Assembly (NCBI RefSeq): GCF_018860705.1
Contig: NZ_JAHKQA010000081.1
Span: 5,504 to 62,359, forward strand
Length of the DNA: 56,856 bases
Reading direction: 5' to 3'
DNA from: Citreicella sp. C3M06
GTDB lineage: Bacteria > Pseudomonadota > Alphaproteobacteria > Rhodobacterales > Rhodobacteraceae
Shown: positions 15,993 to 33,110 of the stretch, in pieces
Position numbering within the stretch: the stretch's first letter is position 1
How the letters are laid out: each line of letters opens with the position of its first letter
Program-made: the position numbers and the translations under genes
Notes under the pieces: model-generated
Seen by the model: the letters and a program-made list of their open reading frames with translations, nothing else
What the model was told of the DNA's origin: nothing
The model's database searches: none

Positions 15993-17348
15993 TTATTCGG
16001 CAGGGGCGGCAGCAACGCCGGCCGGAGTGGCCACGTTGATCGGCCCGGTGACGTAGTTTTCGGGATAGGCCGAGACCGGCACCTTGACGATGTCCAGACC
16101 CTTTTCCTGAATGTGATCCGGCACGCGCAGCAATCCGACAGCGTTCAGCACGAAGGACACGACATAGCCGGGCAGGAAGCCCAGCACCGCCATGGTGGCC
16201 GCGCCGACGATCTGGCCCCAGAGCGAAACCGGGGGCATGCCGTCGATGTTGGGATAGCCGCCGGCAAAGATGCCGCAGGCCACCACGCCGATCAGGCCGC
16301 CGATGCCATGCACCGGGAAGGCGCCAACCGCATCGTCGATGCCCATCTTTTCAAGCCAGACCGCAACCATCGGCACGACGAAGCCTGCAAAGGTGCCCAG
16401 AACGAAGGCAACCGGCGGGTAGTAGACATCAAGACCGGAAGCCGCCGCAAAGATGCCGATCAGCGCGCCGGACATCATCCAGAACGGATCGCGGGTCTTG
16501 ACCCATGCCCCGATGATGCCGCCAGCCATGCCCATCAGCGTGTTGAAGGCGAATGCCGACAGCGTGGTGGGCTGGCCGTAGATGTTGATCCACTGCTCGC
16601 CGGGCATGTAGATGATGCAGCCGCCAAGAAAGCCGAAGAAGCCGACGATGATCAGCATCAGGCCGGTGATGGTGAAGGGCACGTTATGCGCAAAGATCGC
16701 ATTGGCGCTGCCGTCCGAGTTGAATTTTCCGACGCGCGGCCCAAGGTTCAGCAGCACGCCAAGCGCAAAGAAGCCCGCGACCATGTGCACGACGCCCGCC
16801 GCACCCACGTCATGATAGCCGAACTTGACGGTCAGCCAGCCCTGCGGGTGCCAGCCCCATGCGCCGCCAAGGATCCAGACCACCGATCCCAGCAGGATGG
16901 CAAGGATCAGGAAGCCCGCGGTCTGGATGCGCTCGATCACCGCGCCCGAGAAAATCGAGGCGGTGGTGGCGGCAAACAGCGTGAAGGCCGCCCAGAAGAT
17001 GCCGGTGGCGTTGTCGGTCAGGTTCGGACCCATCGACAATTCCCACGGCAGGCCCGCCGCGTCATCGGCCGGCAGCAGGCCGTTGTAGAACGACAGGTAG
17101 ATGTACCAGCCGAAGAAATAGAAGGTCGGCACCATGAAGGCGAAGGCGAGGATGTTCTTGATCCCCGATGCCAGCACGTTCTTGACCCGGCTTGCGCCCA
17201 TCTCGTAGGCCAGAAAGCCTGCGTGGATGGCGATCATCAGCGCGGTACACCACCAGTAGAAGATTTCCGAATTGATCGTGCCCGACATCGCGGTGCTGCT
17301 TTCTAGCGCAGCAAGCCGTTCTGTCAGGGCGGCGAGTTCCTGTTCCAT
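15993..17348 (-). CDS. amt: Ammonium transporter
   Basis: 451 residues of the Amt/MEP/Rh family. The N-terminal 25 residues (MEQELAALTERLAALESST) form a short amphipathic, coiled-coil-like segment not typical of E. coli AmtB. Eleven membrane spans follow. Landmarks are FYWWCTALMIAIHAGFLAYE, AFTLFAATTASIFSGAVIER, VVHMVAGFFALGVLLNLGPR with the first pore His, and VGAFPVHGIGGLIGVVACGIFAGG with the second pore His. The ATG at 17348 has AGGAC upstream; the frame stays open far beyond it only as antisense of the neighbouring ligase gene. It is divergent from the glutamine-synthetase-like gene and lies next to amine-degradation genes that release ammonium or use methylammonium. Confidence 0.93.
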   Translation of the reverse strand: MEQELAALTERLAALESSTAMSGTINSEIFYWWCTALMIAIHAGFLAYEMGASRVKNVLASGIKNILAFAFMVPTFYFFGWYIYLSFYNGLLPADDAAGLPWELSMGPNLTDNATGIFWAAFTLFAATTASIFSGAVIERIQTAGFLILAILLGSVVWILGGAWGWHPQGWLTVKFGYHDVGAAGVVHMVAGFFALGVLLNLGPRVGKFNSDGSANAIFAHNVPFTITGLMLIIVGFFGFLGGCIIYMPGEQWINIYGQPTTLSAFAFNTLMGMAGGIIGAWVKTRDPFWMMSGALIGIFAAASGLDVYYPPVAFVLGTFAGFVVPMVAVWLEKMGIDDAVGAFPVHGIGGLIGVVACGIFAGGYPNIDGMPPVSLWGQIVGAATMAVLGFLPGYVVSFVLNAVGLLRVPDHIQEKGLDIVKVPVSAYPENYVTGPINVATPAGVAAAPAE

Positions 17349-17678
17349 TGTCCTATTGTCCCCATTGGTCTGTTTGCGGGATGTATCTTTTGACAGGGCT
17401 TGTGCTCGCCCCTGCGCCCCACAGTGAAGAAAGTTTCCTGTCGGCAAATCTCGGCATGGGGCGGGGGTAGAGGAATCCCCAGTATTGTTCGATCCAAGGC
17501 AAAATCGCCGTGTGTTTGCGCAATTTGGCGGCGCTGTGCAAATCATGCCTGCCTGTTGGGCAGGCGAATCTACCCATGAGAATAAAAATTTCCCGTTAGG
17601 AATAACTTTCACTGGACAGAATGCGAGTCGCCAAGGCTGTCTTTGGGTCAGACAAGGACACAGCAGGGACGCGAATTC
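17349..17678. promoter_or_regulatory. 330-bp divergent control region between amt and the GS-like/P450 operon
   Basis: No gene. It contains an inverted repeat TTTGCGCA (17513-17520) / TGTGCAAA (17533-17540), whose half-site centres lie 20 bp apart, two helical turns. A GC-rich hairpin, GCCTGCC-TGTTG-GGCAGGC, lies at 17545-17563. An interrupted TTCC/GGAA repeat lies near 17590. A site for a nitrogen regulator such as NtrC would be expected here, but the strict NtrC consensus is not present and no clear sigma-54 promoter is visible. Confidence 0.4.
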
Positions 17679-19148
17679 ATGGATATCGAAAGCTTCGTCG
17701 AAGAACCGGGACGCGATGAAAAGATCAAGGCGGTGCGCGCAAGGATCGACGCGCTGGGCATCGAATACCTTTATCTTCAGTTCGTGTCGGTCACCGGCAA
17801 GATCATGGGCAAGGGCATTCCCGCCGACCATTGGGAAAGCGTCGCCAAGAAGGGCTTTCAGCTGGTCTATGGCTCGACCGTGAACCTGTTCACCAACCGC
17901 GAGGGCAATTATCTGGGCTATGGCCCCGAGGCGGCCGAGCTGGTGGGCATCCCCGAGCCCGAGACCTTTATGCAGCTGCCATGGGCGCCGGAAATCGGCC
18001 GGATGTTCTGTACCCTGTTTCGCAACCGCGAGGAAAAGATCGACCCGGGCGCTTATCTGACTGCGGACAGCCGCGGCAACCTGCGCCGCCTGCACAAGGA
18101 GTTCCAGAAAAAGCACGGGCTGCAGCTGCGTATGGGCACCGAGCCCGAAATGATGTGGCTCAAGTACGACGAGAACGGCAAGCCGTCCGAGGGTGTCTCG
18201 AAACCCTATTGCTACCACATCCACCAATTCGAGGCGCTGCGCCCGGTGTCGATGCAGGTGATCCGCTATGCCCGCAAGATGGGGCTCGACATGATTCAGG
18301 GCGATCACGAAGATGCGCCCGGCCAGCTGGAACTGAACTGGGCCTTCGACGACGTGCTGCGCAACGCCGACCGTCTGACCACCTATCGCCAGCTTTGCGC
18401 GCAGGTGGCGCGGGAGAACGGCATCTTTGCCTGTTTCATGACCAAGCCGTTCATGGGCGTGTCGGCGTCTGGCTGCCATCACAATATGTCGCTGTGGTCT
18501 GCCGGAGAGGATGAGTTCCGCCGCACCGGCAACGATCCCGACAACCTGCCGGGAATGGCGGAAAACTACATGTACGTCAAAGGCGGCGACAACACCTTCA
18601 TGCCCGATACCGACGATCCGCAGATGCCGGGCAAGACCGGTCTCAAGGCGATCGGCGGGGTGGTGCAGCATCTTCAGGCGCTGACCGCGATCGGGGCCTC
18701 GACCGTCAACAGCTATCGTCGGCTGTGGGATACCGGGTTCTGGGCGCCGGTGTTTTCCGACTGGGGCTTTCAGAACCGCACCACCGGCTTGCGGGTCTCG
18801 GCGCCGGGGCGGTTTGAATATCGCTCGGTGGATTCCATGGTGAACCCGTATCTGATGGGGACAACCCTGCTGGCGGCGATGGATGACGGGCTCGACAACA
18901 ACCTCGATCCGGGCGAGCCCGAAGAGCGTAACATCTACGAGGCCATCGAACAGGGCAAGAAGGTCAAGAAGCTGCCGATGAGCCTTGGCGAGGCGCTGAT
19001 CCATCTGGAAAACGACGAGGTGGTGCAGCGCGGGCTTCCGGGCGAGATGTTCCGCCTGTACCATGAATACAAGAGCGATGAGTGGGCGCGGTTCATGTCG
19101 ACCGTGACCGACTGGGACAAGGACACCTATATGGAATGCCTGCCATGA
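17679..19148 (+). CDS. Glutamine-synthetase-like amine:glutamate ligase, substrate unknown
   Basis: 489 residues. It has the metal and substrate motifs of glutamine synthetases: GTEPEMMW, DHEDAPGQLELNW (metal-binding Glu residues), SGCHHNMSLW and RFEYRSVDSMVNPYL. The DHEDAxGQxExNW block is shared with GmaS (34572-35876), so both belong to the same branch of amide-forming ligases rather than to the usual GlnA. The present protein is about 55 residues longer and clearly divergent. It would join glutamate to ammonia or an amine with ATP. Start: ATG 17679 after GGGA; an in-frame start 36 bases upstream lacks support. Its stop overlaps the P450 start (ATGA), so ligase and P450 are made together, opposite amt. 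Confidence 0.75.
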   Translation: MDIESFVEEPGRDEKIKAVRARIDALGIEYLYLQFVSVTGKIMGKGIPADHWESVAKKGFQLVYGSTVNLFTNREGNYLGYGPEAAELVGIPEPETFMQLPWAPEIGRMFCTLFRNREEKIDPGAYLTADSRGNLRRLHKEFQKKHGLQLRMGTEPEMMWLKYDENGKPSEGVSKPYCYHIHQFEALRPVSMQVIRYARKMGLDMIQGDHEDAPGQLELNWAFDDVLRNADRLTTYRQLCAQVARENGIFACFMTKPFMGVSASGCHHNMSLWSAGEDEFRRTGNDPDNLPGMAENYMYVKGGDNTFMPDTDDPQMPGKTGLKAIGGVVQHLQALTAIGASTVNSYRRLWDTGFWAPVFSDWGFQNRTTGLRVSAPGRFEYRSVDSMVNPYLMGTTLLAAMDDGLDNNLDPGEPEERNIYEAIEQGKKVKKLPMSLGEALIHLENDEVVQRGLPGEMFRLYHEYKSDEWARFMSTVTDWDKDTYMECLP

Positions 19149-20347
19149 GCCTTGAAACGCAATTCCCGGACGCGCCGTTTCTCGACGTGGCCAATCCGGG
19201 GTTTTCCCTGCGCTCCGCGCCGGTGCGCGCGGCGCGCAGCAAAAGCTGGTACGCCCGCACGCCCTATGGGCTTGCGGTGCTGCGCCACAAGGAAATGGGC
19301 CAGTTGCTGACCCACAAGTCGCTGATTCAGGGCAGCCATGCGTGGCCGGCGCTGAACGGGGTGACCTCGGGTGTCTTTGCCGATTGGTGGAACAACACCA
19401 TCCTCGTGCGCGAGGGCGACGATCACTGGCGGCTGCGCAAGCTGGTGAACCCGGCGTTTTCGCCGAAGATCGTCAAGGCGCTGATGCCGGAGTTCGAGCG
19501 TATCGCCAATGATCTGGCGGATGGGTTCATCGCGCGCGGCTGCTGCGATTTCATGGCCGAATTCGCAGACCCTTATGCGGCGCGGGTGCTGTGCCTGCTG
19601 CTGGGTCTGCCGGAATCCGAGGCGCCGTTCATCCTGCGCACCTCGGCCACCATGGGGCTGGCGCTGGGGGTGAATTTCCCCGATCTGGTCGACGAGATCG
19701 AGGCGGCGACGGTCGAGCTTGGGGCCTATATCTCGGACGTGCTGAAGCAGCGCGAGGCGTCGCCCGGCGATGACATCCTCTCGGTCATGGTGCAGGCCCG
19801 CGAGGATGGCGACCGGCTGAGCCATGACGAGCTGTGGAACCTTGCGCTGATGCTGGCTTTCGCCGGGGTCGACACGACGCGCAACCAGCTGGGGCTTGGC
19901 TTGTCGATGTTCGCGGCGCATCCAGATCAATGGGAGGCGCTGGCGCATGATCCGTCGCTGGACATGGCGGCGGCAACCGAGGTGATGCGGATGCGGCCCA
20001 CCATCACATGGGTGTCGCGTGAGGCCATCGAGGATTTCGAATACGGCGGCATCACGGTGCCCAAGGGCACGGTGCTGCATCTGTATTCCGAGAGTGCGGG
20101 AACCGACCCTGAGGTGATGGGCGACGCCGGGTTCGATATCACCGCGAAGCGGGCGCGCAACTTTGGCTTTGGCGGCGGGGTGCATCACTGCCTTGGCAAT
20201 CTTGTGGCGCGCAACGACATGGCGGTGGCGTTCCGGGTGCTGTCAGCGCGTATGGGCGCGCCTGTCATCGGCGAGGGTGCAACTTGGTTGGCGGACAGTG
20301 GCAACACCGGGCCGATTGCCTTGCCGCTGAGCTTTTCGCCGCGCTGA
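19145..20347 (+). CDS. Cytochrome P450
   Basis: 400 residues, a soluble bacterial class I P450. The I-helix oxygen-binding motif is FAGVDTTRNQ (about residue 240). The E-x-x-R of helix K fits EVMRMR. The heme loop is FGGGVHHCLG (about 340-350) with the axial Cys. No membrane anchor and no fused reductase are present, so it needs a ferredoxin and reductase from elsewhere; none is adjacent. It overlaps the ligase gene by four bases and is followed by a terminator. Pairing with an amine ligase suggests N-dealkylation or hydroxylation of a gamma-glutamyl amide or its amine, but this is inference. Confidence 0.88.
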   Translation: MSLETQFPDAPFLDVANPGFSLRSAPVRAARSKSWYARTPYGLAVLRHKEMGQLLTHKSLIQGSHAWPALNGVTSGVFADWWNNTILVREGDDHWRLRKLVNPAFSPKIVKALMPEFERIANDLADGFIARGCCDFMAEFADPYAARVLCLLLGLPESEAPFILRTSATMGLALGVNFPDLVDEIEAATVELGAYISDVLKQREASPGDDILSVMVQAREDGDRLSHDELWNLALMLAFAGVDTTRNQLGLGLSMFAAHPDQWEALAHDPSLDMAAATEVMRMRPTITWVSREAIEDFEYGGITVPKGTVLHLYSESAGTDPEVMGDAGFDITAKRARNFGFGGGVHHCLGNLVARNDMAVAFRVLSARMGAPVIGEGATWLADSGNTGPIALPLSFSPR

Positions 20348-20487: not shown

Positions 20488-22017
20488 TTAGAGGCTGGCG
20501 GCGATTTTGGCGGCGCCGAGCGCGCCGATCAGGATGGCGGCGGCGTTGGTATTGCCCGAGACGATGCGGGGTATGACGCTGGCATCGGCGATGGAGAGGT
20601 TCTCGATGCCGTGCACCGCCATGGTTTGCGGGTCGGTGGCAGATTGCGGATCGCTGCCCATGCGGGCGGTGCCGACGGGGTGGTAGATGCTGTCGGCGGT
20701 GGCGCGAATGGTGGCGTCGAGCTGGGCGTCGGTGGTGATTTGCGGGCCGGGGCGGAGCTCTGCGCCGGTGAAGGCGGCAAGGGCGGGCTGGCGGCAAAGC
20801 TCGCGCAGCAGTTTGAGCCCGTCGCGCAGCAGTTTGCGGTCGGTGTCTTCGGCGAGGTAGTTGGGATCGATCAGCGGCTTGGTGGCCGGATCGGCGGAGG
20901 CGAGGCGTAGGGTGCCTCGGCTTTGCGGTTGCAGCTGGGTGACGTCGATGGCGAAGCCGTGGCCCTTGTCAGCGGCAGTGGCGCCGTCGAAGGCCAGCGC
21001 ATTGATGAAATGCAGCTGGGTGTCCGGGGCGGCGTTTGCCGGATCGAGGGACAGGAAGGCGCCGGCCTCGAGCCCTTGCTGGCAGCCTGCGCCCTGTTTC
21101 GTCAGCAGCCATCTTGCGCCGGTGGCGAGGTTGTTGGGGAATTTTGCGGCATCCCATAGCGACAGCGGCCGGGTCATGCGGTGCTTGACCTTGACCTCGA
21201 GGTGGTCGTGCAGGTTTTCACCGACGCCGGGCAGGTCTGCGGCGACGCTGATGCCATGGGCGCGCAGGTGATCTGCCGGGCCGATACCGGAGAGCATCAG
21301 CAGATGCGGGGTGCCGATGGCGCCGGTGCACAGGAGGATATGCCCGGCCTTGAGGGTTTCGTCTGCAAGCTGCACGCCGGTGGTACGTGGGCCGGACATA
21401 TGCAGGCCGGTGATCTGGGCGCCGGTGCGGATGGTCAGGTTGGGGCGGGCTTTGGCGAGGCTGAGGAAGGCATGCGCGGCGCTGCGGCGGCGGCCATTGG
21501 CGGTGTTGAGCCGGAAGAGGCCGAAGCCGTGTTCTTGGCCGTCGATAGCGCCCTGGACCGGGTGGCCCAACTGGCGGCCCGCTGCGATGAAACCGTCATA
21601 GGCGGGGCCGGAGGCGGGCAGGGATGGGGCCATGATGGCGGTGATCTCGTCCAGCGTTGGCTGTACATCGGCCCAGCCCCAGCCGGGCGCGCCGTTCGCC
21701 GCCCACCAGTCGTAATCCGACGCATGGCCCGTCACCCAGACCATAGCGTTGATGCCGGACGAGCCGCCCAGCAACTTGCCGCGCGGCACGTAGAGGCGGC
21801 GGTTGTCCATATGGGTTTGCGGCACTGTCTCGTAATGCCAGTTGAAGCGGGGGTGGGCGATGGCCTTGGCGACGCCAGCGGGCATCTGCACAAAGGGGTG
21901 GTGGCCGGGTGGTCCGGCCTCGAGCAGCAGCACTTTGCAGGAGGCATCGCGCGACAGCCGCTCCGCGGCCGCGCAACCGGCGCTGCCTGCGCCGACGACG
22001 ATGACATCCCAGCTCAT
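20488..22017 (-). CDS. GMC-family FAD alcohol dehydrogenase (choline-dehydrogenase-like)
   Basis: 509 residues. The FAD-binding motif DVIVVGAGSAGCAAAERLS is at the N-terminus. The GMC signature GGSSGINAMVWVTGHASDYD is near residue 80. The C-terminal catalytic pair is in YHPVGTARMGSDP and VSGNTNAAAILIG. It oxidises a primary alcohol to an aldehyde using FAD. It resembles choline dehydrogenase and other GMC enzymes; the exact alcohol cannot be read from sequence. The ATG at 22017 overlaps the stop of the upstream MetX-like gene (ATGA), so the two are coupled. Its neighbourhood suggests an amino-alcohol or an alcohol from an alkylated amine. Confidence 0.85.
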   Translation of the reverse strand: MSWDVIVVGAGSAGCAAAERLSRDASCKVLLLEAGPPGHHPFVQMPAGVAKAIAHPRFNWHYETVPQTHMDNRRLYVPRGKLLGGSSGINAMVWVTGHASDYDWWAANGAPGWGWADVQPTLDEITAIMAPSLPASGPAYDGFIAAGRQLGHPVQGAIDGQEHGFGLFRLNTANGRRRSAAHAFLSLAKARPNLTIRTGAQITGLHMSGPRTTGVQLADETLKAGHILLCTGAIGTPHLLMLSGIGPADHLRAHGISVAADLPGVGENLHDHLEVKVKHRMTRPLSLWDAAKFPNNLATGARWLLTKQGAGCQQGLEAGAFLSLDPANAAPDTQLHFINALAFDGATAADKGHGFAIDVTQLQPQSRGTLRLASADPATKPLIDPNYLAEDTDRKLLRDGLKLLRELCRQPALAAFTGAELRPGPQITTDAQLDATIRATADSIYHPVGTARMGSDPQSATDPQTMAVHGIENLSIADASVIPRIVSGNTNAAAILIGALGAAKIAASL

Positions 22018-23033
22018 GCCAGCAACTCGCGCAGGGCGTTGTCGATGACGGCGGTGTCGGCGGCGTTGCGCCCGCCGCCGGCGTAATGGCCCCAGACGCT
22101 GTCGATCACGCGCAGTTCGGCGTTGGGCATCTGCGCCACCTCGGCGGCGTTGTCCTCGGGCGGGAAGTAGAGATCGGTCCGGCAGGGCAGGATGATCGAA
22201 CGTGCGGTGATCGCCGCAAGTGCCGCCTTGCGATCGCCGTTGTAAACCGGATTGGCGGCGATGTCGCACAGCTGCCAGGTGCGGATCATCGACAGCATGT
22301 CATTCGCATCCAGCCCATAATACATCGAATCCCATGTGTTCTTCAGGTAATCCTCGACGCTGATGAAGCCCATGTCGCGCCACAGTTCGGCGCGGAACCA
22401 TTCCTGCGAAAGCACCCAGCCCGCCCAGACCCGGCCCTTGGCGGTCAGACCGCGCCAAGGCTGCTGCGTGTAGCGGCCCTGCTGCCATTCGGGATTGGTG
22501 ATCAGCGCGTGCTTGACGCCTTCGAGGAACACATAGGTGTGCCCGGCGGTGATCGCCTGACCGCAAAAACAGGCCATGGCGGCGACGCGCTCGGGGAACA
22601 GGGCCGCCCAAGCGTAGGCCTGCTGGCCGCCCATAGACCAGCCACAGACCAGCCGGATCTGCTCGATGCCGAACAGCTCGCGTAGCATGCGTTCCTGAAG
22701 CATGACATTGTCATATTGCGTGATGGTCGGGAAATCCGGCCCGTGTAGCGGGATCGGCGTGTTGGACGGCGACGACGACACGCCGTTGCCCAGCATGTTG
22801 GGCACGACGATGAAATATTTCGACGGGTCCAGCGCCATGTCTGTGCCGATGAGGAACTCATTGTCGGCGTGGCTGCCACCGTAGCGCGTCGGGTAGACAA
22901 TGACATTGTCCCGCGCCGCGTTCAGCGTGCCATAGGTGCTGTAGGCAAGCTTTGCCCCCTTCAGCGTGATGCCGCATTGCAGGGCGACATCGCCCGCCTC
23001 GAAGATTTCGAAAGGGGTCAGTTCCGCGCTCAT
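22014..23033 (-). CDS. MetX-like alpha/beta hydrolase
   Basis: 339 residues, distantly related to homoserine O-acetyltransferase (MetX). The nucleophile elbow is CGWSMGGQQAYAWA (about residue 145). The acid lies in CRTDLYFPPEDN and the catalytic His in VWGHYAGGGRNA. The MetX motif with a Gly-rich NxLGG...GSTGP is replaced by NMLGNGVSSSPSNTP, and the protein is shorter than MetX (about 370-400). An acyl-hydrolase or acyltransferase on another substrate is therefore more likely than methionine synthesis. AAGGACC precedes the ATG. It is the first gene of a two-gene operon with the GMC enzyme, divergent from tmm. Confidence 0.75.
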   Translation of the reverse strand: MSAELTPFEIFEAGDVALQCGITLKGAKLAYSTYGTLNAARDNVIVYPTRYGGSHADNEFLIGTDMALDPSKYFIVVPNMLGNGVSSSPSNTPIPLHGPDFPTITQYDNVMLQERMLRELFGIEQIRLVCGWSMGGQQAYAWAALFPERVAAMACFCGQAITAGHTYVFLEGVKHALITNPEWQQGRYTQQPWRGLTAKGRVWAGWVLSQEWFRAELWRDMGFISVEDYLKNTWDSMYYGLDANDMLSMIRTWQLCDIAANPVYNGDRKAALAAITARSIILPCRTDLYFPPEDNAAEVAQMPNAELRVIDSVWGHYAGGGRNAADTAVIDNALRELLA

Positions 23034-23445
23034 TTCAGATGGTCCTTGACGTCAGGTTGCGATGCCGAAGGGGCGGCACCCGTAGTTGAAGATCTGCCGC
23101 GCCGCTGCGGTGACGGCATCTGCGCGCCTTGCGAGCGCCGTCTGGAGCCGGGCCTGCGCGCGTGGCCAGGTTCGGCTGCACGGTCGCGCAAGCGAGCGCT
23201 GCTTTGGCAAGCATAGCGTGAGAACCCGCCGGGTGTTCGATCCGCTCGTGTTTATGAACCGGGAACCGCATGTGCCGAGCCTCGTGAAAACCGGTTGCCT
23301 CATCAATGTGCAGCCCGGGCTGCAACGCTTGCAGATTTTCAGTCAGCAGTCGCCACGACAAGAAGAATGGTTGATCTGAGGGAAATTTTTGTAACCATCA
23401 GGAAAAATATGCCTAGTGCGATTGCACATGAACAGGGAGACGGAA
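23034..23445. promoter_or_regulatory. 412-bp divergent region upstream of tmm
   Basis: No convincing gene; the open frames here have no family similarity. The AT-rich end close to tmm carries ATTTTT (23385-23390) and AAAAAT (23403-23408), an inverted repeat around a 12-base centre. It contains the word TTTTCCTGA on the minus strand, which recurs upstream of mgsA. This is a plausible operator/promoter zone. Confidence 0.4.
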
Positions 23446-24798
23446 ATGCGGATTTGCGTGATCGGCGCGGGGCCTTCGGGGCTGGCGCAACTGCGGGCCT
23501 TTCAGTCGGCCAAAGCGGCGGGCGGCGAGAGTCCCGAGATTGTCTGCTATGAAAAGCAACCCGACTGGGGCGGTCTTTGGCGCTATGACTGGCGCACCGG
23601 GGTCGATGAATACGGCAACCCGGTGCATGGATCGATGTATCGCTACCTGTGGTCCAACGGCCCCAAGGAGGGGCTGGAATTCGCCGATTACACCTTTGAC
23701 GAGCATTTCGGCAAGCCAATCGCCAGCTATCCTCCGCGTGCGGTGCTGTTCGATTACATCGAAGGCCGGGTGAAACAGGCTGGCGTGCGCGACTGGATCC
23801 AGTTTTCGACCGTGGTGCGCGATGTGACCTTTGACGAGGCGTCGGGCCTGTTCACCGTCAAGGCGCGCAATTGCGAAACCGACAGCGAAAGCGCCGAAGA
23901 GTTCGACCATGTCATCGTGGCCTCGGGGCATTTCAGCTTTCCCAACGTGCCCTATTATCCGGGCTTCGAGAGCTTCAACGGCCGCATTCTGCACGCCCAT
24001 GATTTTCGCGATGCGCGCGAGTTCGAAGACCGCGATCTGCTGATCCTCGGCACCTCGTATTCCGCCGAGGACATCGGCTCGCAATGCTGGAAATACGGTG
24101 CGAAGTCGATCACCGTGGCGCATCGCACCGCACCGATGGGCTATGAGTGGCCCGAGAACTGGGCCGAGGTTCCGGCGCTGGAAAAGGTCGAGGGCAAGAC
24201 CGTCACCTTCAAGGATGGCACGAGCAAAAAGGTCGATGCGATCATCCTTTGCACCGGCTACAAGCACCATTTCCCCTTCCTTGGGGATGATCTGCGGCTC
24301 AAGACCGCGAACCGGCTGGCGGCGAGCGATCTGTACAAGGGCGTGGTCTATACCGGCAATCCCAAGCTGTTCTATCTGGGGATGCAGGACCAGTGGTACA
24401 CGTTCAACATGTTCGACGCGCAGGCGTGGTGGGTGCGCGACTGTATCCTTGGCAAGATCGCCCTGCCGGATGCCGCAGCCATGGAGGCCGACTGGACCCA
24501 GCGTCAGGCCGATGAAGACTTGGTGGGCGATGATCACGACGCCATCGTCTATCAGGGCGAGTACGTCAAAGAGTTGATCGCCGAGACCGATTACCCCAGT
24601 TTCAACGTCGAGGGCGCCAACGAGGCGTTCTTCCAATGGAAGAAACACAAGAAGAAAGCCATCATGGCGTTCCGCGACAATGGCTATGTCTCGCCGATGA
24701 CCGGCACCATGGCGCCGCCGCATCACACCCCGTGGCGGCACGCGCTGGATGACAGTCTGGAAAGCTATCTTCAGACCGGGGCAGAGGCCGCCGAGTGA
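23446..24798 (+). CDS. tmm: Trimethylamine monooxygenase
   Basis: 450 residues, a bacterial flavin-containing monooxygenase that oxidises trimethylamine to TMAO with NADPH and O2. The FAD-binding GAGPSG is at residues 7-12. The FMO signature [11 protein letters not shown] is at 177-187. The NADPH-binding GTSYSAE is at 202-208. Length and the aromatic-rich [13 protein letters not shown] segment are those of marine Tmm. The ATG at 23446, after an AGGGAGA site, starts directly at the FAD strand; upstream in-frame ATGs would add ten residues. The stop overlaps the tdm start. Tmm followed by Tdm is the classic roseobacter/SAR11 TMA pathway. Confidence 0.95.
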
Positions 24799-27146
24799 TG
24801 GAGCTTGCCGTGCCAAAGCGGGGGGTGCTGACGCCGGGCCTGTCCCTGCCGCCGGGCACAGAGCGGCACCCGGTGCCGGGGGGCGGCTCGCGGGCGGTGG
24901 AAATCCACGCGGGCGACGTCATCACCGTGGAGGACCGCGAGGGCGGGCAGGTGGCCGAACTGGTCGCCTTCACGCCAGCGGGGGTGGGCGATCCGGGGCT
25001 GATCGGGGCGGTGGGCAATTGCGGCCCCGAGGGGCTGAAGGCGACGCTGCTGGAAACGGCCTCCGGGCGCGGCGTGGCGCGGGCGCTGGGCGCGGCGGGC
25101 TTCGATCTTGGCGGCGCGCGCGCGGTGCGGGTGTTTGCCGAGGGCTCGCGCCCCGGTGACACTGCGCGCTTTGTCGCGCAGGGCGGCGGGCTGCTGGTGG
25201 TGGGCGCGCCGGGCGGGCCGATGACCCCCGATGCGCAGGACACCGTCACCGACCTGCTGCTGTGGATCAACCGCGCCGATCCGGCGTTCAAGCGCCCGCA
25301 CTGCGCCCCCGATCCGCTGGCCGACCCGGTGATCGACCGCAACATCGCCCCCGGCGAGGCGTTCATCTACGAGGTGCCCAAGGGGGCCTTCATTCAGGTG
25401 CTCGACGTGCAGGGCCGCGAATGTTCGGATTTTCAGGCCTTCAGCGCGCGCAGCCTTGATGCGGGCCACCCGCGTGAGATCGACCCGACCGCCACCCGCT
25501 CGATGACCGGGCGCATCTACCCCAAGCCGGGCCTCGCGGCGAAATACTGGACCGTCGATTTCGAACCGCTGGTCGAGATCGTACAGGACACCTGCGGGCG
25601 GCACGACACCTTCGGGCTGGCCTGTACCGCGCGATATTACGACGACATGGGCTATTTCGGGCATGTGAACTGTACTGACAACATCAACCTGTCGTTGGGC
25701 CCCTACGGCGTGCGCCCACGGGCCGGCTGGCCCGCCATCAACTTCTTTTTCAACACGCTGCTGGACGCCGATCATGGCATCGTCACCGATGAGCCATGGT
25801 CGCGCCCCGGCGATTACGTGCTGCTGCGGGCGCTGAGCGATCTGGTCTGCGTCTCGACGGCCTGCCCCGACGATATCGACCCGGCCAATGGCTGGACCCC
25901 AACCGACATTCAGCTGCGCACCTATGGCGCGGCGGAGGATTTCCGCCGCTCGATCGGCTGGCGCAAGCGCCCGGAGGACGACGCGATTCATACGCAAGAG
26001 ACGGGCTTTCACGCCAGCTTTGCCGCGCATACCCGCGATTTCATCGAATATAATGGCTATTGGCTGGCCAACAGCTTTCCCGGCACCGGCACGCTGGGCG
26101 AATACTGGGCCTGCCGCGAGCGGGCCGCGATCATGGATCTCTCGCCGCTGCGCAAGTTCGAAATCACCGGCCCGGATGCGCTGGCACTGATGAACGCCTG
26201 CGTCACCCGCAATATCGAAAAGCTCAGCGTCGGGCAGGTGGTCTATACCGCCGTTTGCGCGCAGCATGGCGGCATGATCGACGATGGCACGGTGTTCCGG
26301 CTGGGCGATCACAATTTCCGCTGGATCGGCGGCAGCGATCATTCCGGCATGTTCCTGCGCGAACAGGCCGCGGCGCTGGGCCTTGACGCCCATGTGCGCA
26401 GCTCGACCGACCAGTTGCACAATGTTGCGCTGCAGGGGCGGCACGCGCGCGCGATCCTGTCGCAGATCTTCTGGACCCCGCCGGATCGTGCGAGCGTCGA
26501 AGACCTCGGCTGGTTCCGCTTTACCATCGCCCGGCTGGGGGATTTTTCCGGCACGCCGGTGATGATCTCGCGCACCGGCTATACCGGCGAGCTGGGCTAC
26601 GAGATCTTCTGCCACCCCAAGGACGCGCCCGAGGTGTTCGATGCGATCTGGAAGGCGGGGCAGGCCTATGGGCTGAAACCGCTCGGCATGGCGGCGCTGG
26701 ACATGCTGCGCATCGAGGCCGGGCTGGCCTTTGCCGGCCATGAATTCGATGATCAGACCGACCCGTTCGAGGCGGGCATCGGCTTTACCGTGCCGCTGAA
26801 AAGCAAGGAAGCCGATTTCTCGGGGCGCGAAGCATTGCTGGAACGCAAGGCGCATCCGCAGCGCAAGCTGGTCGGGCTGGAGGTCGATGCAACCACCGTT
26901 CCGACCCATGGTGATTGCGTGCGGCTGGGGCGCGTGCAGGTCGGGGTGATCACCAGCGCCACCCGCTCGCCGATCCTTGGCAAGACCATCGCTCTGGCGC
27001 GTGTGGAAGAAATTCACGCGACCCCCGGCACCGAGCTGCAGATCGGGCAGCTCGATGGGCATCAGAAACGCCTGACGGCGCGCGTCGTTCCGTTTCCGCA
27101 TTTCGACCCGAGCAAATCCCGCGCCAAGGGTGATTACGACGCATGA
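24798..27146 (+). CDS. tdm: Trimethylamine N-oxide demethylase
   Basis: 782 residues. It converts TMAO to dimethylamine plus formaldehyde. The N-terminal ~380 residues are a DUF1989 domain. Its three candidate zinc ligands are Cys276 (ACTARYYDD), Cys292 (NCTDN) and Cys356 (TACPDD), spaced 16 and 64 residues apart as I recall for characterised Tdm. From about residue 415 a GcvT-type tetrahydrofolate-binding domain follows (DLSPLRKFEITGPDA, RTGYTGELGYEIFCHP, GLAFAGHEFDDQTDP), which captures the formaldehyde. GTG at 24795 is also in frame; the ATG at 24798 overlaps the tmm stop and is preferred. The end overlaps the next gene (ATGA). Confidence 0.93.
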   Translation: MELAVPKRGVLTPGLSLPPGTERHPVPGGGSRAVEIHAGDVITVEDREGGQVAELVAFTPAGVGDPGLIGAVGNCGPEGLKATLLETASGRGVARALGAAGFDLGGARAVRVFAEGSRPGDTARFVAQGGGLLVVGAPGGPMTPDAQDTVTDLLLWINRADPAFKRPHCAPDPLADPVIDRNIAPGEAFIYEVPKGAFIQVLDVQGRECSDFQAFSARSLDAGHPREIDPTATRSMTGRIYPKPGLAAKYWTVDFEPLVEIVQDTCGRHDTFGLACTARYYDDMGYFGHVNCTDNINLSLGPYGVRPRAGWPAINFFFNTLLDADHGIVTDEPWSRPGDYVLLRALSDLVCVSTACPDDIDPANGWTPTDIQLRTYGAAEDFRRSIGWRKRPEDDAIHTQETGFHASFAAHTRDFIEYNGYWLANSFPGTGTLGEYWACRERAAIMDLSPLRKFEITGPDALALMNACVTRNIEKLSVGQVVYTAVCAQHGGMIDDGTVFRLGDHNFRWIGGSDHSGMFLREQAAALGLDAHVRSSTDQLHNVALQGRHARAILSQIFWTPPDRASVEDLGWFRFTIARLGDFSGTPVMISRTGYTGELGYEIFCHPKDAPEVFDAIWKAGQAYGLKPLGMAALDMLRIEAGLAFAGHEFDDQTDPFEAGIGFTVPLKSKEADFSGREALLERKAHPQRKLVGLEVDATTVPTHGDCVRLGRVQVGVITSATRSPILGKTIALARVEEIHATPGTELQIGQLDGHQKRLTARVVPFPHFDPSKSRAKGDYDA

Positions 27147-28015
27147 CCCCCGAAGATCGCGTAAAGGCGTTGGCGTTCTGGTCCGGCCCGATCGAGATCG
27201 CGCCGCTGACCGGGGGCATCACCAACCTCAACTATGTGGTGAGCTGCGCGGGGCGGCAATACGTGGTGCGCCTAGGGCAGGATATCCCCGAACATCTGGT
27301 GATGCGCTGGAACGAACAGGCGCTGACGCAGGCGGCGGCAGAGGCGGGGATTTCCCCGGCCTTGCGCCATGCCGAGCCGGGGGTGATGATCACCGATTTC
27401 ATCACCTCGACCGCCCTCAGCGAGGCCGATCTGCACGACCCCGCCACCTTGCGCGCCGCGGTGGATCTGGTTGCCCGCGTGCACCGCGATCTGACCCGCC
27501 GTGTCACCGGCCCGGTGCTGACCTTCTGGGTCTTTCACGTGCTGCGCAGCTATGCCAGCTATCTTGCTCGCCACGGATCGCCCCACCTGTCCCTGATCCC
27601 GCAGCTGATGAGCGAGGCGATGCAGCTGGAAGAGGCGGTGCAGCCCATCGACATGGTACTGGGGCACAACGATTTGCTGCCGCAGAACATCCTGCGCGCC
27701 GAAGACCGGCTGTGGCTGGTGGATTGGGAATATGGCGGGTTCAATGCGCCGCTGTTCGATCTGGGCGGGCTGGCGTCGAATGCGGGCCTTCCCGATGGGG
27801 CAGAGCAAGAGATGCTCGGCCTGTATCTTGGCCATACCCCCGATGCCGCCTACCTGCGCCGCTACGGGGCGATGAAATGCGCCTCGCTGCTGCGCGAGGC
27901 GATGTGGTCGATGGTGTCCGAGCTTACCTCGCAGATCGAGTTTGATTATGTGGCCTATACCGGCGAGAACCTCGCCCGCTATCGCGCCGCCCTTGAGACA
28001 TGGACCGCCCGATGA
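27143..28015 (+). CDS. Choline/aminoglycoside-kinase-like phosphotransferase
   Basis: 290 residues with the APH/choline kinase fold. It has an N-lobe ATP site (LTGGITNLNYVV), a catalytic loop LGHNDLLPQNIL (about residues 173-184) with Asp and Asn, and a metal-binding LVDWEYGGFN. It would phosphorylate the hydroxyl of a small molecule; LGHNDLxPxN and WEY favour a choline- or ethanolamine-kinase-like substrate. It is coupled at both ends, to tdm and to the DMGDH-like gene, by four-base overlaps. Its role in trimethylamine use is not described as far as I know, though methylated amines such as choline are obvious partners. Confidence 0.8.
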   Translation: MTPEDRVKALAFWSGPIEIAPLTGGITNLNYVVSCAGRQYVVRLGQDIPEHLVMRWNEQALTQAAAEAGISPALRHAEPGVMITDFITSTALSEADLHDPATLRAAVDLVARVHRDLTRRVTGPVLTFWVFHVLRSYASYLARHGSPHLSLIPQLMSEAMQLEEAVQPIDMVLGHNDLLPQNILRAEDRLWLVDWEYGGFNAPLFDLGGLASNAGLPDGAEQEMLGLYLGHTPDAAYLRRYGAMKCASLLREAMWSMVSELTSQIEFDYVAYTGENLARYRAALETWTAR

Positions 28016-30438
28016 CCTTCCCGAACCAAGCCCGCGCCGTCATCGTCGGCGGCGGCATCATTGGCTGCTCGACCGCCTATCACCTTGCCAGTCTCGGCTG
28101 GGAGGTGGTGCTGCTCGAGGCGCACAAGCTGACCTCGGGCACCACCTTTCACGCGGCGGGGCTGGTGGGGCAGCTGCGCAGCTCGGCCAATATCACCGAA
28201 CTGCTGGGCTATTCGGTGAAACTCTATGACACGCTCGAGGCCCAGACCGGGCAGGCGACCGGGTGGAAGCGCAATGGCGGTCTGCGCCTTGCCTGCAATG
28301 CCGAGCGCTGGACGGAGGTGAAACGTCAGGCCACCACCGCCCGCAGCTTCGGCCTTGATATGCAGCTGCTGACGCCGCTTGAGGCGCAATCGCTATGGCC
28401 GCTGATGGATGTGTCCGACGTGATCGGCGCGGCTTATCTGCCGACCGACGGGCAGGCCAACCCGTCGGACATCACCCTGTCGCTGGCCAAGGGCGCGCGC
28501 ATGGCCGGGGCGCAGATCATCGAGGATTGCAAGGCGCTGTCGGTCACGCGCGAAAACGGCGTCATCACCGGGGTGCAGACGGCGCAGGGCTTTATCAAGA
28601 CCGGCATCGTCATCGCCTGCTGCGGCCAGTGGACCCGCGATTTAGCCGCGCCGCTGGGGGTCACCGTGCCGCTGGTGTCGATGGAACATCAGTACATGGT
28701 GACCGAACCGATCGAGGGCGTCACCCGCGATCTGCCGACCCTACGCGACCCAGACCGGCTGACCTACTGGAAGGAAGAGGTTGGCGGGCTGGTGATGGGC
28801 GGCTACGAGCCAAACCCCAAGCCTTGGGCGGTTTCGGGCATTCCCGAGGGCTTTCACTACACGCTGCTAAGCAGCGACTATGATCATTTCGAACAGATCA
28901 TGGAACTGGCGCTGGGCCGTGTCCCGGCGCTGCAAACCGCCGGCATCAAGACGCTGACCAACGGGCCGGAAAGCTTTACCCCCGATGGCAACTTCATCCT
29001 TGGCGAGGCGCCAGAGCAGCCGGGATTCTTTGTCGGGGCGGGGTTCAACGCCTTTGGCATCGCCTCGGGCGGGGGTGCGGGCATGGCGTTGGCGGAATGG
29101 GTGGCCAAGGGCGAGCCGCCGATGGATCTGTGGCCCGTCGACATCCGCCGCTTTGGCCGTCCGCATTTCGATACCGACTGGGTGCGCACCCGGACCGTCG
29201 AAGCCTATGGCAAGCATTACACCATGGCCTGGCCCTCCGAGGAACATGACAGCGCCCGACCGACCCGCCGCTCGCCGCTCTACGACCGGCTTGCCGGGCG
29301 CGGCGCGGTGTTCGGCGAAAAGATGGGCTGGGAGCGCCCCAACTGGTTCGCCGCCCCCGGCGAGGTGGCCAAGGACATCTATACCTATGAGCGCCCCAAC
29401 TGGTTCGCTGCCGTGGCCCGCGAACACCGCGCCGCGCGCGAGGCGGCGGTGCTGATCGACCAGACCTCCTTTGCCAAGTTCTGGCTGCAAGGCCCGGATG
29501 CTGAATCCGCCCTGCAACGGATCTGCGCCAATGACGTGGGGGGGCCGGTGGGCGCGCTGACCTATACCCAGATGCTCAACGATCGCGGCGGCATTGAGGC
29601 GGACCTGACGGTGGTGCGCACCGGCCCCGAGGCGTTTTACATCGTCACCGGCACCGGCTTTGCCACCCGCGATTTCGACTGGATCCAGCGCGGGCTGGCA
29701 GGCGCGAACGCACAGCTGATCGACGTGACCTCGGGCACCGCGGTGCTGTCGCTGATGGGGCCAAAGGCGCGCGACATCCTGTCGGCGGTGACGCGGGCGG
29801 ATGTGTCGAACGCCGCGTTCCCCTTTGGCACGGCGCAGATGATCGCCATCGCGGGCGCGCCGGTGCGGGCGCTGCGGGTCAGCTATGTCGGAGAGCTGGG
29901 CTGGGAACTGCACCTGCCAGTCGAATATGCCGCCAGCGTGTTCGATGCGCTGCACATGACGGGCGCGGCGCATGGGCTGGTCGATGCAGGCTACCGCGCC
30001 ATCGAGAGCCTGCGGCTGGAAAAGGGCTACCGCGCATGGGGCAGCGACATTGGCCCCGACAGCACGCCCTACGAGGCTGGGCTCGGCTTCGCTGTGGCGC
30101 AGGGCAAGGCGTTTCGCGGCCAGCCCGCGCTGCTGGCGCAAAAGCCACGCGTCTTGACCCGGCGCCTTGCCACCTTTACCGCCGCGCCAGAGGTCATCCT
30201 GCTGGGGCGCGAAACGGTGTTCCGCAACGGCGAGCGGGTCGGCTATCTCAGCTCGGGCGGCTTCGGCCACACGCTGGGCAAGGCGATTGGCATGGGCTAT
30301 CTGAAACACCCCGGCGGCGTGACCAAGGACTGGATCGCCTCGGGCAGCTACGAGCTGGAGGTGGCGATGCAGCGCGTGCCCTGCGAGGTGACGCTGTCGC
30401 CGCTCTACGATCCCGCCGGGACGCGGCTGAAATCGTGA
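28012..30438 (+). CDS. Dimethylglycine/sarcosine-dehydrogenase-like flavoprotein with GcvT domain
   Basis: 808 residues. The first ~390 form a DAO-type FAD domain (AVIVGGGIIGCSTAYHLASLG). TSGTTFHAAGLVG retains the His that holds FAD covalently in dimethylglycine dehydrogenase. The middle and C-terminal ~400 residues are GcvT-like (FWLQGPDAESALQRICANDV, VSYVGELGWELHLPVEY, GYRAWGSDIGPDSTPYEAGL). Such enzymes oxidise an N-methyl group and pass it to tetrahydrofolate as 5,10-methylene-THF. The substrate may be dimethylglycine, sarcosine or another N-methyl compound. A start 12 bases upstream is possible; ATG 28012 overlaps the kinase stop and is preferred. Confidence 0.82.
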   Translation: MTFPNQARAVIVGGGIIGCSTAYHLASLGWEVVLLEAHKLTSGTTFHAAGLVGQLRSSANITELLGYSVKLYDTLEAQTGQATGWKRNGGLRLACNAERWTEVKRQATTARSFGLDMQLLTPLEAQSLWPLMDVSDVIGAAYLPTDGQANPSDITLSLAKGARMAGAQIIEDCKALSVTRENGVITGVQTAQGFIKTGIVIACCGQWTRDLAAPLGVTVPLVSMEHQYMVTEPIEGVTRDLPTLRDPDRLTYWKEEVGGLVMGGYEPNPKPWAVSGIPEGFHYTLLSSDYDHFEQIMELALGRVPALQTAGIKTLTNGPESFTPDGNFILGEAPEQPGFFVGAGFNAFGIASGGGAGMALAEWVAKGEPPMDLWPVDIRRFGRPHFDTDWVRTRTVEAYGKHYTMAWPSEEHDSARPTRRSPLYDRLAGRGAVFGEKMGWERPNWFAAPGEVAKDIYTYERPNWFAAVAREHRAAREAAVLIDQTSFAKFWLQGPDAESALQRICANDVGGPVGALTYTQMLNDRGGIEADLTVVRTGPEAFYIVTGTGFATRDFDWIQRGLAGANAQLIDVTSGTAVLSLMGPKARDILSAVTRADVSNAAFPFGTAQMIAIAGAPVRALRVSYVGELGWELHLPVEYAASVFDALHMTGAAHGLVDAGYRAIESLRLEKGYRAWGSDIGPDSTPYEAGLGFAVAQGKAFRGQPALLAQKPRVLTRRLATFTAAPEVILLGRETVFRNGERVGYLSSGGFGHTLGKAIGMGYLKHPGGVTKDWIASGSYELEVAMQRVPCEVTLSPLYDPAGTRLKS

Positions 30439-31497: not shown

Positions 31498-32385
31498 ATG
31501 TGTGGCATTGTCGGACTCTTCCTCAAGAAGGAAGACCTGCGCCCAAAGCTTGGCGACATGCTGACGGACATGCTGATCACCATGACCGACCGCGGCCCGG
31601 ACAGCGCGGGCATCGCGATCTATGGCGCCGATGCGGGCGGCCACAAGATCACCGTCCAGTCGGACAGCCCGGCGAGCGATTTCGCCGGCCTTGACGTGGC
31701 GCTCGGCGAGGCGCTGGGCACCCCCGTCGCGATGAAGCAGGCAGATACCCATGCGGTTCTGACCGTTGCCGAAGACGCGCTGAAGCCAGCCGTGGCCTTC
31801 CTCGAGGCGCGCGGCCTGCGCATCATGGGCGTGGGCGAGGCGATGGAGATCTACAAGGAAACCGGCCTGCCGCGCGATGTCGCGGCCCGGTTCAACCTGC
31901 GCGCCATGGGCGGCAGCCATGGCATCGGCCACACCCGCATGGCGACGGAATCGGCGGTGACGACGCTGGGCGCGCACCCCTTCAGCACCGATGCCGACCA
32001 GTGCCTTGTGCACAATGGCTCGCTGTCGAACCACAACACCATGCGCCGCATCCTCAGCGAAAAGGGCTTTGCCCCGAAAACCGAAAACGACACCGAGGTT
32101 GCCGCCTGCTACATCTCCTCCCGCATCGCCGAGGGCGCCAACCTCGGTCAGGCGCTCGAAGGCACGCTCGATGATCTCGACGGGTTCTTCACCTTCGTCA
32201 TGGGCACGAAAAACGGCTTCGGCGTGGTGCGCGACCCGATCGCCTGCAAGCCCGCGGTGATGGCCGAAACCGACGATTACGTCGCCTTTGGCAGCGAATA
32301 CCGCGCCTTCGCCAATCTTCCGGGGATCGACACCGCCCGCGTCTGGGAACCCGAACCCGCCACCGTCTATTTCTGGGAGCGTTGA
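31498..32385 (+). CDS. mgsA: N-methylglutamate synthase subunit A (class II glutamine amidotransferase)
   Basis: 295 residues. The N-terminal MCGIVGLF exposes Cys2, the nucleophile of class II amidotransferases, after Met removal. TDRGPDSAGIAIYG and SHGIGHTRMATES are the other conserved parts of that fold. It corresponds to the glutaminase portion of glutamate synthase, here a separate subunit. With MgsB and MgsC it forms the enzyme that moves methylamine from gamma-glutamylmethylamide onto 2-oxoglutarate or glutamate to give N-methylglutamate. GGAGAG precedes the start. mgsB follows after three bases. Confidence 0.9.
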   Translation: MCGIVGLFLKKEDLRPKLGDMLTDMLITMTDRGPDSAGIAIYGADAGGHKITVQSDSPASDFAGLDVALGEALGTPVAMKQADTHAVLTVAEDALKPAVAFLEARGLRIMGVGEAMEIYKETGLPRDVAARFNLRAMGGSHGIGHTRMATESAVTTLGAHPFSTDADQCLVHNGSLSNHNTMRRILSEKGFAPKTENDTEVAACYISSRIAEGANLGQALEGTLDDLDGFFTFVMGTKNGFGVVRDPIACKPAVMAETDDYVAFGSEYRAFANLPGIDTARVWEPEPATVYFWER

Positions 32386-32388
32386 GCC

Positions 32389-33099
32389 ATGGCCGCGACC
32401 AAACAAGCCGTCTCTGACGTGCAGACCCTCGACATGGGGCAGATCGAACTGCGCGAGGTCAACGCGACGCTGCAAGCCGCGCCCTCGACCAATTACACCC
32501 AATTCGAGATCCTCAACACCCGCGGCAGCCATGCCATCGCGGTGGGGCTCGATGCCGAGATAGAGGTCACGGTGATAGGGTCCACCGGCTATTACTGCGC
32601 CGGGATGAACAAGCTGGCGACGGTGCATGTCACCGGCTCTGTCGGGCCGGGGGTGGCGGAAAACATGATGTCCGGCACGGTGATCGTCGATGGCGATGCC
32701 TCGCAATATGCCGGGGCCACCGCCCATGGCGGGCTGCTGGTGATCAAGGGCAATGCCAGCTCGCGCTGCGGTATCTCGATGAAGGGCATCGACATCGTGG
32801 TGCATGGCAACATCGGCCACATGTCCGCCTTCATGGCGCAAAGCGGCAACCTCGTGGTGCTGGGCGATGCCGGCGATGCGCTGGGGGATTCGCTGTATGA
32901 GGCGCGGCTCTTCGTGCGCGGCTCGGTGAAATCTCTGGGCGCGGATTGCATCGAAAAAGACATGCGCCCCGAACATATCGAGATACTCGCCGATCTGCTG
33001 ACCCGCGCTGGCGCAGATGCAAAGCCCGAGGAATTCAAACGCTACGGCTCGGCCCGCAAGCTGTATCATTTCAACGTCGACCACGCAGACGAATACTGA
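32389..33099 (+). CDS. mgsB: N-methylglutamate synthase subunit B (GXGXG domain)
   Basis: 236 residues homologous to the C-terminal beta-helix (GXGXG) domain of the glutamate synthase large subunit. Repeating strands with glycines are visible in VTGSVGPGVAENMMSGTVIV, AHGGLLVIKGNASSRCG and GNIGHMSAFMAQSGNLVVLG. The domain is structural, bridging amidotransferase and FMN parts. Coupled to mgsA and mgsC. Confidence 0.88.
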   Translation: MAATKQAVSDVQTLDMGQIELREVNATLQAAPSTNYTQFEILNTRGSHAIAVGLDAEIEVTVIGSTGYYCAGMNKLATVHVTGSVGPGVAENMMSGTVIVDGDASQYAGATAHGGLLVIKGNASSRCGISMKGIDIVVHGNIGHMSAFMAQSGNLVVLGDAGDALGDSLYEARLFVRGSVKSLGADCIEKDMRPEHIEILADLLTRAGADAKPEEFKRYGSARKLYHFNVDHADEY

Positions 33100-33110
33100 A
33101 GGACATGGGC

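Follow-up and report, generated by a model that had tools for sequence, protein, structure and literature searches.

A glutamine synthetase-like ligase and an overlapping cytochrome P450 as candidate dimethylamine enzymes beside the trimethylamine genes of Citreicella sp. C3M06

Introduction

Genes for cytochromes P450 that stand beside genes of the glutamine synthetase (GS) family have been described before. An excerpt of PMC10516948 presents a CYP151(pipA)-ferredoxin-glnA operon in mycobacteria that degrade polycyclic aromatic hydrocarbons, and in the part of PMC9477822 used here, PipA and MorA homologues of Gulosibacter appear with GS genes at neighbouring locus numbers. A comparable pair is found in a stretch of 56,856 nucleotides from Citreicella sp. 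C3M06 (contig NZ_JAHKQA010000081.1, positions 5,504 to 62,359), the whole of which is called the window. It consists of a glutamine-synthetase-like protein encoded at 17679-19148 (GS2) and the overlapping cytochrome P450 encoded at 19145-20347 (P450). An initial annotation took the pair for the best candidate in the window for an undescribed system, which it is not in kind, given the mycobacterial and Gulosibacter examples.

Trimethylamine (TMA) is converted by Tmm and Tdm to dimethylamine (DMA) and formaldehyde, the DMA being released by Tdm. For DmmDABC, which would act next, an isoenzyme has been suggested in HTCC1062 (excerpt of PMC8918994). Judged from sequence comparisons, GS2 and the P450 may form the DMA step of the TMA pathway in the Citreicella genome and replace DmmDABC, an assignment that falls slightly short of an even chance. 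The wider proposal, that many Tmm/Tdm bacteria without DmmDABC have in GS2 their missing DMA enzyme, stands evenly balanced. These bacteria would conjugate DMA to glutamate and complete the route in one of two ways: most lineages, genome G421 among them, with an MgsABC paralog and a flavin adenine dinucleotide (FAD) oxidoreductase, and the lineage of the window with a coupled P450. Given its near-perfect partition against Dmm among Tdm genomes, GS2 is a named and clonable candidate for the use of DMA. If true, the proposal would point to a function for the GS gene next to PipA-type P450s, which one paper has assigned to ammonium assimilation, and ecology would gain a second marker gene for DMA.

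Labels with G and a number denote sampled genomes (G000 is the source genome), and labels with L denote individual loci. The family sample comprises 394 genomes from 393 genera, and a class-wide draw covers 191 genomes. The survey thresholds, chosen by the authors, were E<=1e-60 for the P450, E<=1e-90 for GS2 and E<=1e-200 for Tdm; GmaS was searched for at E<=1e-100, DmmC directly at E<=1e-20 and mgsC paralogs at E<=1e-40.

Identity of GS2 and the P450

The two genes share four bases (ATGA, 19145-19148), as initially annotated, and each is single-copy in the source genome, where the other GS paralogs are 26-39% identical to GS2 and the next P450 is 33% identical (matched parts). GS2 has 489 amino acids and matches PF00120 with 265 bits; the P450 has 400 and matches PF00067 with 62.9 bits. 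Neither reaches a specific NCBIfam cut-off. GS2 scores 308.8 bits with the type III ligase model TIGR03105 (GmaS; cut-off 469.6), to which the GmaS of the window scores 659.3, 248 bits with the GlnA model TIGR00653 (cut-off 429) and 220 bits with the PuuA model NF045547 (cut-off 650).

The view that GS2 shares a sequence block with GmaS and is otherwise longer and divergent also holds: the DHEDAPGQLELNW block is present and the two proteins are about 32% identical. In a tree of 23 GS proteins, in which three own-genome entries sit on long branches, GS2 of all locus types described below and the P450-adjacent GS of Gordonia and Streptomyces plasmids form one clade with 100/100 support. This clade lies next to GmaS (82/88) but outside the GmaS clade, and apart from GS1, which accompanies GS2 at some loci, and from the other own-genome paralogs, including a GlnA-like protein. 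At the position of the Glu-flap, GS2 has a tryptophan (GFWAPV), as does GmaS, and the GlnA-like own-genome protein L006 has glutamate (GFEAPV). The positions of Lys30' and Glu186 of RhGmaS, residues named in PMC7948447, are kept. The flap tryptophan and the score under the GlnA cut-off make GS2 look unlike a glutamine synthetase. The tryptophan argues against that function; as a GmaS signature it is weaker, and the identity of the amine does not follow from it. GS2 may act in the manner of GmaS, although it is a member by neither score nor clade. An AlphaFold model of GS2 with a mean predicted local distance difference test (pLDDT) score of 61 was left unused.

The P450 keeps the residues G241 and D243-T245 of the I helix, E279 and R282 of the ExxR motif and the haem ligand C349, all invariant in an alignment of 34 sequences. 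It is 54% identical to the Mycobacterium smegmatis P450 P0269, presumed to be PipA. Identity above 40% is the rule for common membership in a CYP family, and the window P450 appears close to the PipA/MorA (CYP151-like) group. Its model has a pLDDT of 90.4, and the nearest solved structure by sequence and fold is AurH (37-38% identity). In the P450 tree, the P450 of the window type and five relatives form a clade (99/99) with the G083 P450 outside it, and the 12 sampled type-B P450s form a distant clade (100/100). In this tree, 10 of the 29 inner branches are open, and the G083 P450 has no settled place. Matches to the P450 in viral contigs (4 loci, 27-29% identity) were set aside as irrelevant.

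Co-occurrence with the P450 and Tdm and partition against Dmm

In the family sample, the P450 occurs in 24 genomes, GS2 in 36 and both in 23. GS2 is thus present in 23 of the 24 P450 genomes and in 13 of the 370 others (Fisher p 5e-27, like all Fisher values here uncorrected for kinship among genomes). The sole P450 genome without GS2, G322, is 71% complete. The outcome named beforehand as speaking against a joint system, a P450 that usually occurs without the ligase in relatives, was therefore not found.

GS2 is also associated with Tdm. When the divergent GS2 genomes G046, G254, G282 and G299 are removed from the 36, 32 genomes with close GS2 (about 69% identity or higher) remain. Tdm occurs in 90 of the 394 genomes: in all 32 with close GS2 and in 58 of the 362 others. 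PF11927, which DmmC matches, is present in 308 genomes, and 53 of them reach at least 206 bits, an author-chosen limit (next score 202) above which the match was taken as DmmC. None of the 32 close-GS2 genomes has such a strong PF11927 match or DmmC. In the window genome, DmmC was not found, and the PF11927 match (E 2e-47) belongs to the weaker group. A direct DmmC search covered 54 chosen genomes (36 with GS2, 10 Dmm controls and 8 with neither). All ten controls were positive, one of them the query's own genome; among the GS2 genomes only G046 was, and three of the eight genomes with neither gave partial matches on contigs. The remaining Dmm assignments, about 42, were made by PF11927 score alone.

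The 90 Tdm genomes are thereby divided into 33 with GS2 and 53 with Dmm (50 by PF11927 score, 3 by DmmC fragments), G046 being in both groups and five in neither. Two of these five, G033 and G335, are 74% and 79% complete, and in the others (G063, G223, G228) Tdm identity is only 46-51%. The class-wide draw yielded 13 further Tdm genomes from 11 genera. Twelve have GS2 (65-75% identity) without DmmC; in the thirteenth, G541, DmmC is present and all GS paralogs are distant. DmmC was likewise not found in any of the 17 GS2 genomes reached via named loci, picked outside Rhodobacterales names. Because GS2 occurs among Tdm genomes where DmmC is not found, DMA is its likely substrate, a point overlooked in the initial annotation.

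Five genomes with Tdm and GS2 (G064, G079, G101, G102, G195) bear on this point, as neither DmmC nor GmaS was found in them at the survey thresholds. Four of them are drafts; G101 consists of one contig with a completeness rating of 100%. Of the five, G079 alone has a P450 belonging to this group. By these searches, GS2 is the one remaining ligase of the GmaS and GS2 kinds in the five genomes.

The weaker-scoring PF11927 group is widespread in the family, including G000, and occurs in many genomes without Tdm. It was considered as a DMA demethylase and rejected, because PF11927 is present in 308 genomes against 90 with Tdm, and the GS2 genomes G001, G014 and G064 lack it.

Layouts of GS2 loci

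Three layouts can be distinguished. In type A, GS2 stands directly before the P450 with amt nearby (survey genomes G000, G219, G239, G083; named loci L079-L083, with L081 from the cultured strain Marinibacterium profundimaris 22II1-22F33). The order of the window, with amt opposite GS2-P450 and then tmm and tdm, is repeated in G219, G239 and L079-L082, so the arrangement is not due to chance. In L083, GS2 likewise stands directly 5' of the P450, which is followed by amt in the same orientation; G083 has a second GS gene upstream of the pair. Canonical mgsC and gmaS occur in all four type-A survey genomes, none of which has an mgsC paralog at the search threshold, and tmm and tdm lie inside the fetched stretch of all five named loci.

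Type B, with 28 survey genomes, combines GS2 with an MgsABC paralog (MgsC' 52-54% identical to MgsC). The two lie on one contig, at most about 4 kb apart, in 26 genomes; the other two are not placeable, the GS2 match of G102 being a fragment and GS2 of G160 lying less than 2 kb from the contig start. Genes for a 137-aa (amino acid) protein, a CN-hydrolase and a 196-aa protein, together with tmm, often follow, and an FAD oxidoreductase gene stands upstream in many. A P450 of this group is found somewhere in the genome in 15 of the 28 (13 at 38-45% identity, 2 at about 50%). In the class-wide draw, nine of the twelve GS2 loci were read; in each of them GS2 has the MgsABC paralog and the 137-aa gene as neighbours.

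Type C combines the P450 with GS1 and GS2 (51-54% identity) in G046, G254, G282 and G299 and on the plasmids L011 and L012. A ferredoxin reductase is present in all four genomes; a polyamine-type ABC transporter, a PuuC-like dehydrogenase, a GATase and ferredoxin or flavoprotein genes occur variously.

The named GS2 loci are the best 80 of 564 confirmed. They overlap with the survey, as at least four lie on contigs that agree in length with those of sampled genomes and are taken to be the same (L092/G201, L108/G072, L112/G328, L142/G557). Full 10-kb flanks are available for 45, so that neighbour counts are lower bounds. MgsA' is encoded at most 1.5 kb downstream in 74, the 137-aa gene is present in 64, the 196-aa gene in 55, the FAD oxidoreductase in 37 (31 directly upstream), tmm in 25, tdm in 15, either of these two in 31, and dmmC in none. 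An adjacent P450 occurs in five. Of the dedicated ligase-P450 system initially suggested, one half stands, the P450 being tied to GS2; the other does not, as the ligase mostly occurs without an adjacent P450 and in the company of the MgsA paralog.

The 137-aa and 196-aa proteins accompany GS2 and the MgsABC paralog at L047 (13810-14223 and 16803-17393), with homologs at many type-B loci. The homologs at L053 match nothing in Pfam at E<=1e-5, and the idea that the two proteins are Dmm relatives was dropped after no significant match was obtained. On the Gordonia plasmid pGKT2 (L013 10307-12751), the P450-adjacent GS shares one frame of 814 amino acids with an FAD-dependent oxidoreductase, and the record annotates the second half only. 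G421 is a single-contig, AT-rich genome of 1.41 Mb (35-36% G+C over 40 kb) with GS2 about 17 kb from tdm. About 40 kb of it (L159, L160) hold gmaS, GS2, two mgsABC sets, tmm, tdm, amt, a MetX-like hydrolase and a third GS-like gene.

Proposed pathway and alternatives

Tmm and Tdm, recognised here by family membership, would convert TMA to DMA and formaldehyde. GS2 would then join DMA to the gamma-carboxyl group of glutamate at the expense of ATP, as GmaS does with monomethylamine, yielding gamma-glutamyl-dimethylamide. Hydroxylation of an N-methyl group by the P450 would release formaldehyde and leave gamma-glutamyl-methylamide, which could enter the MgsABC and Mgd reactions; the genes for these start 11 kb downstream. 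In most relatives, GS2 would reach the same end via its own MgsABC paralog, in many with the FAD oxidoreductase in place of the P450. Least certain in this proposal is which comes first, ligation or oxidation. No title or abstract opening describing a gamma-glutamyl-dimethylamide route was found in the open-licence literature, although such absence is no proof.

Several observations weigh against this proposal. The GS2 of the window is nested among type-B sequences and that of G083 branches before them, so GS2 and the P450 were not simply inherited together as a pair. No P450 of this group was found in 13 of the 28 type-B genomes, which makes the P450 dispensable for the GS2 route. Among the residues of RhGmaS, Tyr174 is replaced by Ile and His237 by Asn in GS2, and Lys30' is common to most GS paralogs, hence not specific to GmaS. 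The flap tryptophan is also present in GS1 proteins and the own-genome paralog L005, and actinobacterial members have phenylalanine. No gene for a ferredoxin or ferredoxin reductase was seen among the called or scanned genes beside the pair, the rest of the genome not having been searched, and the survey for DmmC included no search for a DMA dehydrogenase. The association of GS2 with Tdm may partly reflect linkage, with TMA islands moving as a whole; pure linkage is less likely because Tdm of the type found with GS2 (65-67% identity) occurs together with Dmm in G010, G288, G327 and G340. No report of enzyme activity for GS2 or the window P450 was found in the open-licence literature. TMA is unable to form an amide. 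RhGmaS has been reported to accept DMA, with a Km of 16 mM against 27 uM for methylamine, but the same substrate table includes TMA (excerpt of PMC7948447), so the figure for DMA may stem from ATP consumption instead of ligation and gives soft support only.

The main counter-precedent concerns the order of the two reactions. Cyclic amines are the substrates of MorA and PipA, the characterised P450s closest to that of the window, and morpholine was oxidised by MorA together with its ferredoxin and reductase (part of PMC9477822), so that prior ligation is unneeded by precedent. The similarity of the window P450 to that of M. smegmatis fits a scheme in which the P450 converts free DMA to methylamine, which GS2 then ligates. 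This order is fairly unlikely, since neither P450 nor DmmC nor GmaS was found in G064, G101, G102 and G195 (three of the four are drafts), where GS2 must meet DMA itself if the Tdm product is used, and in the window methylamine is already served by GmaS. An unlikely variant keeps ligation first and lets the canonical MgsABC turn the GS2 product into N,N-dimethylglutamate, to be demethylated by the P450 or by the DAO-GcvT flavoprotein. The frequent type-B order of FAD oxidoreductase, GS2 and MgsABC paralog, parallel to GmaS-MgsABC-Mgd, and the position of the DAO-GcvT gene between tdm and mgsABC speak for it, but the canonical MgsABC would have to accept a tertiary amide, and of the fetched stretches, those of G219 and G239 alone contain close DAO-GcvT homologs (78-80%).

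It is distinctly unlikely that the pair serves to break down another secondary amine, such as pyrrolidine, piperidine or a polyamine, and that its place in the TMA island is accidental. The transporter, dehydrogenase, ferredoxin reductase and two GS genes of the type-C clusters would suit such a function, and Tdm was not found in three of the four type-C survey genomes; against it stand the consistent presence of Tdm and absence of DmmC in the close-GS2 genomes and the tmm and tdm genes of every named type-A locus. A very improbable reading reduces GS2 to a second GmaS or a nitrogen-assimilating glutamine synthetase, with the P450 unrelated. The block shared with GmaS, the position opposite amt and the interpretation of the GS linked to the Gulosibacter P450 as serving ammonium assimilation (part of PMC9477822) agree with it. 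The separate, fully supported clade and a flap tryptophan where L006 has glutamate do not, and GmaS is also present in 28 of the 36 GS2 genomes of the family sample, to which the co-occurrence with the P450 is added.

The surrounding island

The initial annotation placed the pair opposite amt and near tmm and tdm, in accordance with Table 1. A candidate promoter motif shared within the window was discarded as weak (2 matches against 0.3-0.4 expected). A weak site resembling the AGTGAAnAAnnTTTCC and AATAAAnnTTTCC blocks of the amt/GS2 intergenic region lies immediately 5' of tmm (23381-23393). The MetX-like hydrolase may be part of methylamine metabolism, because it recurs near methylamine genes.

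Table 1. Features of the GS2-P450 island, with positions in the window
Feature	Position	Strand	Basis and remarks
amt, ammonium transporter family	15993-17288	-	PF00909; opposite GS2 in L079-L082, G219, G239
amt/GS2 intergenic region, divergent	17289-17678	none	conserved AGTGAAnAAnnTTTCC-type block closer to amt, AATAAAnnTTTCC-type block closer to GS2; 7 type-A loci aligned
GS2, amide ligase in a clade separate from GmaS	17679-19148	+	proposed gamma-glutamyl-dimethylamide synthetase; PF00120, tree, residues
P450, PipA/MorA (CYP151-like) group	19145-20347	+	proposed N-demethylase of the glutamyl conjugate; PF00067, tree, model
GMC oxidoreductase, choline-dehydrogenase-like	20488-22017	-	under betA cut-off; found in L079-L083, G219, G239
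MetX-like alpha/beta hydrolase (PRK07581 family)	22014-23033	-	found in L079-L083, G219, G239, G421
tmm, trimethylamine monooxygenase	23428-24798	+	NF058570, above cut-off
tdm, trimethylamine N-oxide demethylase	24798-27146	+	NF053776, above cut-off; proposed DMA source
Kinase-like gene after tdm	27143-28015		best NCBIfam match pre-guanitoxin N-oxide kinase family, below cut-off; homologs in L038, L039, L081, L082
DAO-GcvT flavoprotein (dimethylglycine/sarcosine dehydrogenase-like)	28000-30438	+	possible alternative downstream demethylase
Helix-turn-helix regulator			in the island with tdm, DAO-GcvT and mgsABC genes
mgsA, N-methylglutamate synthase	31498-32385	+	position and homology to paralog set
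mgsB, N-methylglutamate synthase	32389-33099	+	position and homology to paralog set
mgsC, N-methylglutamate synthase	33105-34436	+	glutamate-synthase type; homologs adjoin gmaS
gmaS	34572-35876	+	TIGR03105, above cut-off; best PDB match RhGmaS 7cql, 646 bits
mgd soxB-like, N-methylglutamate dehydrogenase	35995-37245	+	TIGR01373/TIGR01372, above cut-off (mgd set)
mgd small subunit	37255-37533	+	position only
mgd soxA-like, N-methylglutamate dehydrogenase	37530-40451	+	TIGR01373/TIGR01372, above cut-off (mgd set)

Comparison with known systems

The pair resembles the CYP151-ferredoxin-glnA operons and the Gulosibacter pairs in its P450 group, its adjacent GS and its proposed use of secondary amines, and the GS genes beside P450s on Gordonia and Streptomyces plasmids fall inside the GS2 clade. 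Those systems, however, serve cyclic amines, and the Gulosibacter GS has been assigned to ammonium assimilation (part of PMC9477822), whereas the window pair is part of a tmm-tdm-mgs-gmaS-mgd island, and no ferredoxin gene was seen next to it.

With GmaS and the N-methylglutamate pathway, GS2 shares the GS fold family, the flap tryptophan, Lys30' and Glu186, and in type B the pairing with an MgsABC paralog. It differs in its length, low identity, own clade and changed Tyr174 and His237, and in its proposed substrate, DMA instead of methylamine. DmmDABC would occupy the same pathway position, between Tdm and GmaS, but belongs to other protein families and is not found with close GS2. The Puu pathway for gamma-glutamyl-putrescine likewise places glutamate ligation before oxidation, and type-C clusters include a PuuC-like dehydrogenase and a GATase; GS2 nevertheless scores far below the PuuA cut-off, a P450 takes the place of PuuB, and neither puuC nor puuD was seen among the neighbours of the window pair. 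AurH, the closest solved P450, is 37-38% identical, and its substrate is a polyketide. The pairing of a P450 with a GS thus has printed precedent; new here are the setting, the near-perfect mutual exclusion of GS2 and Dmm in two samples and the proposed link to DMA.

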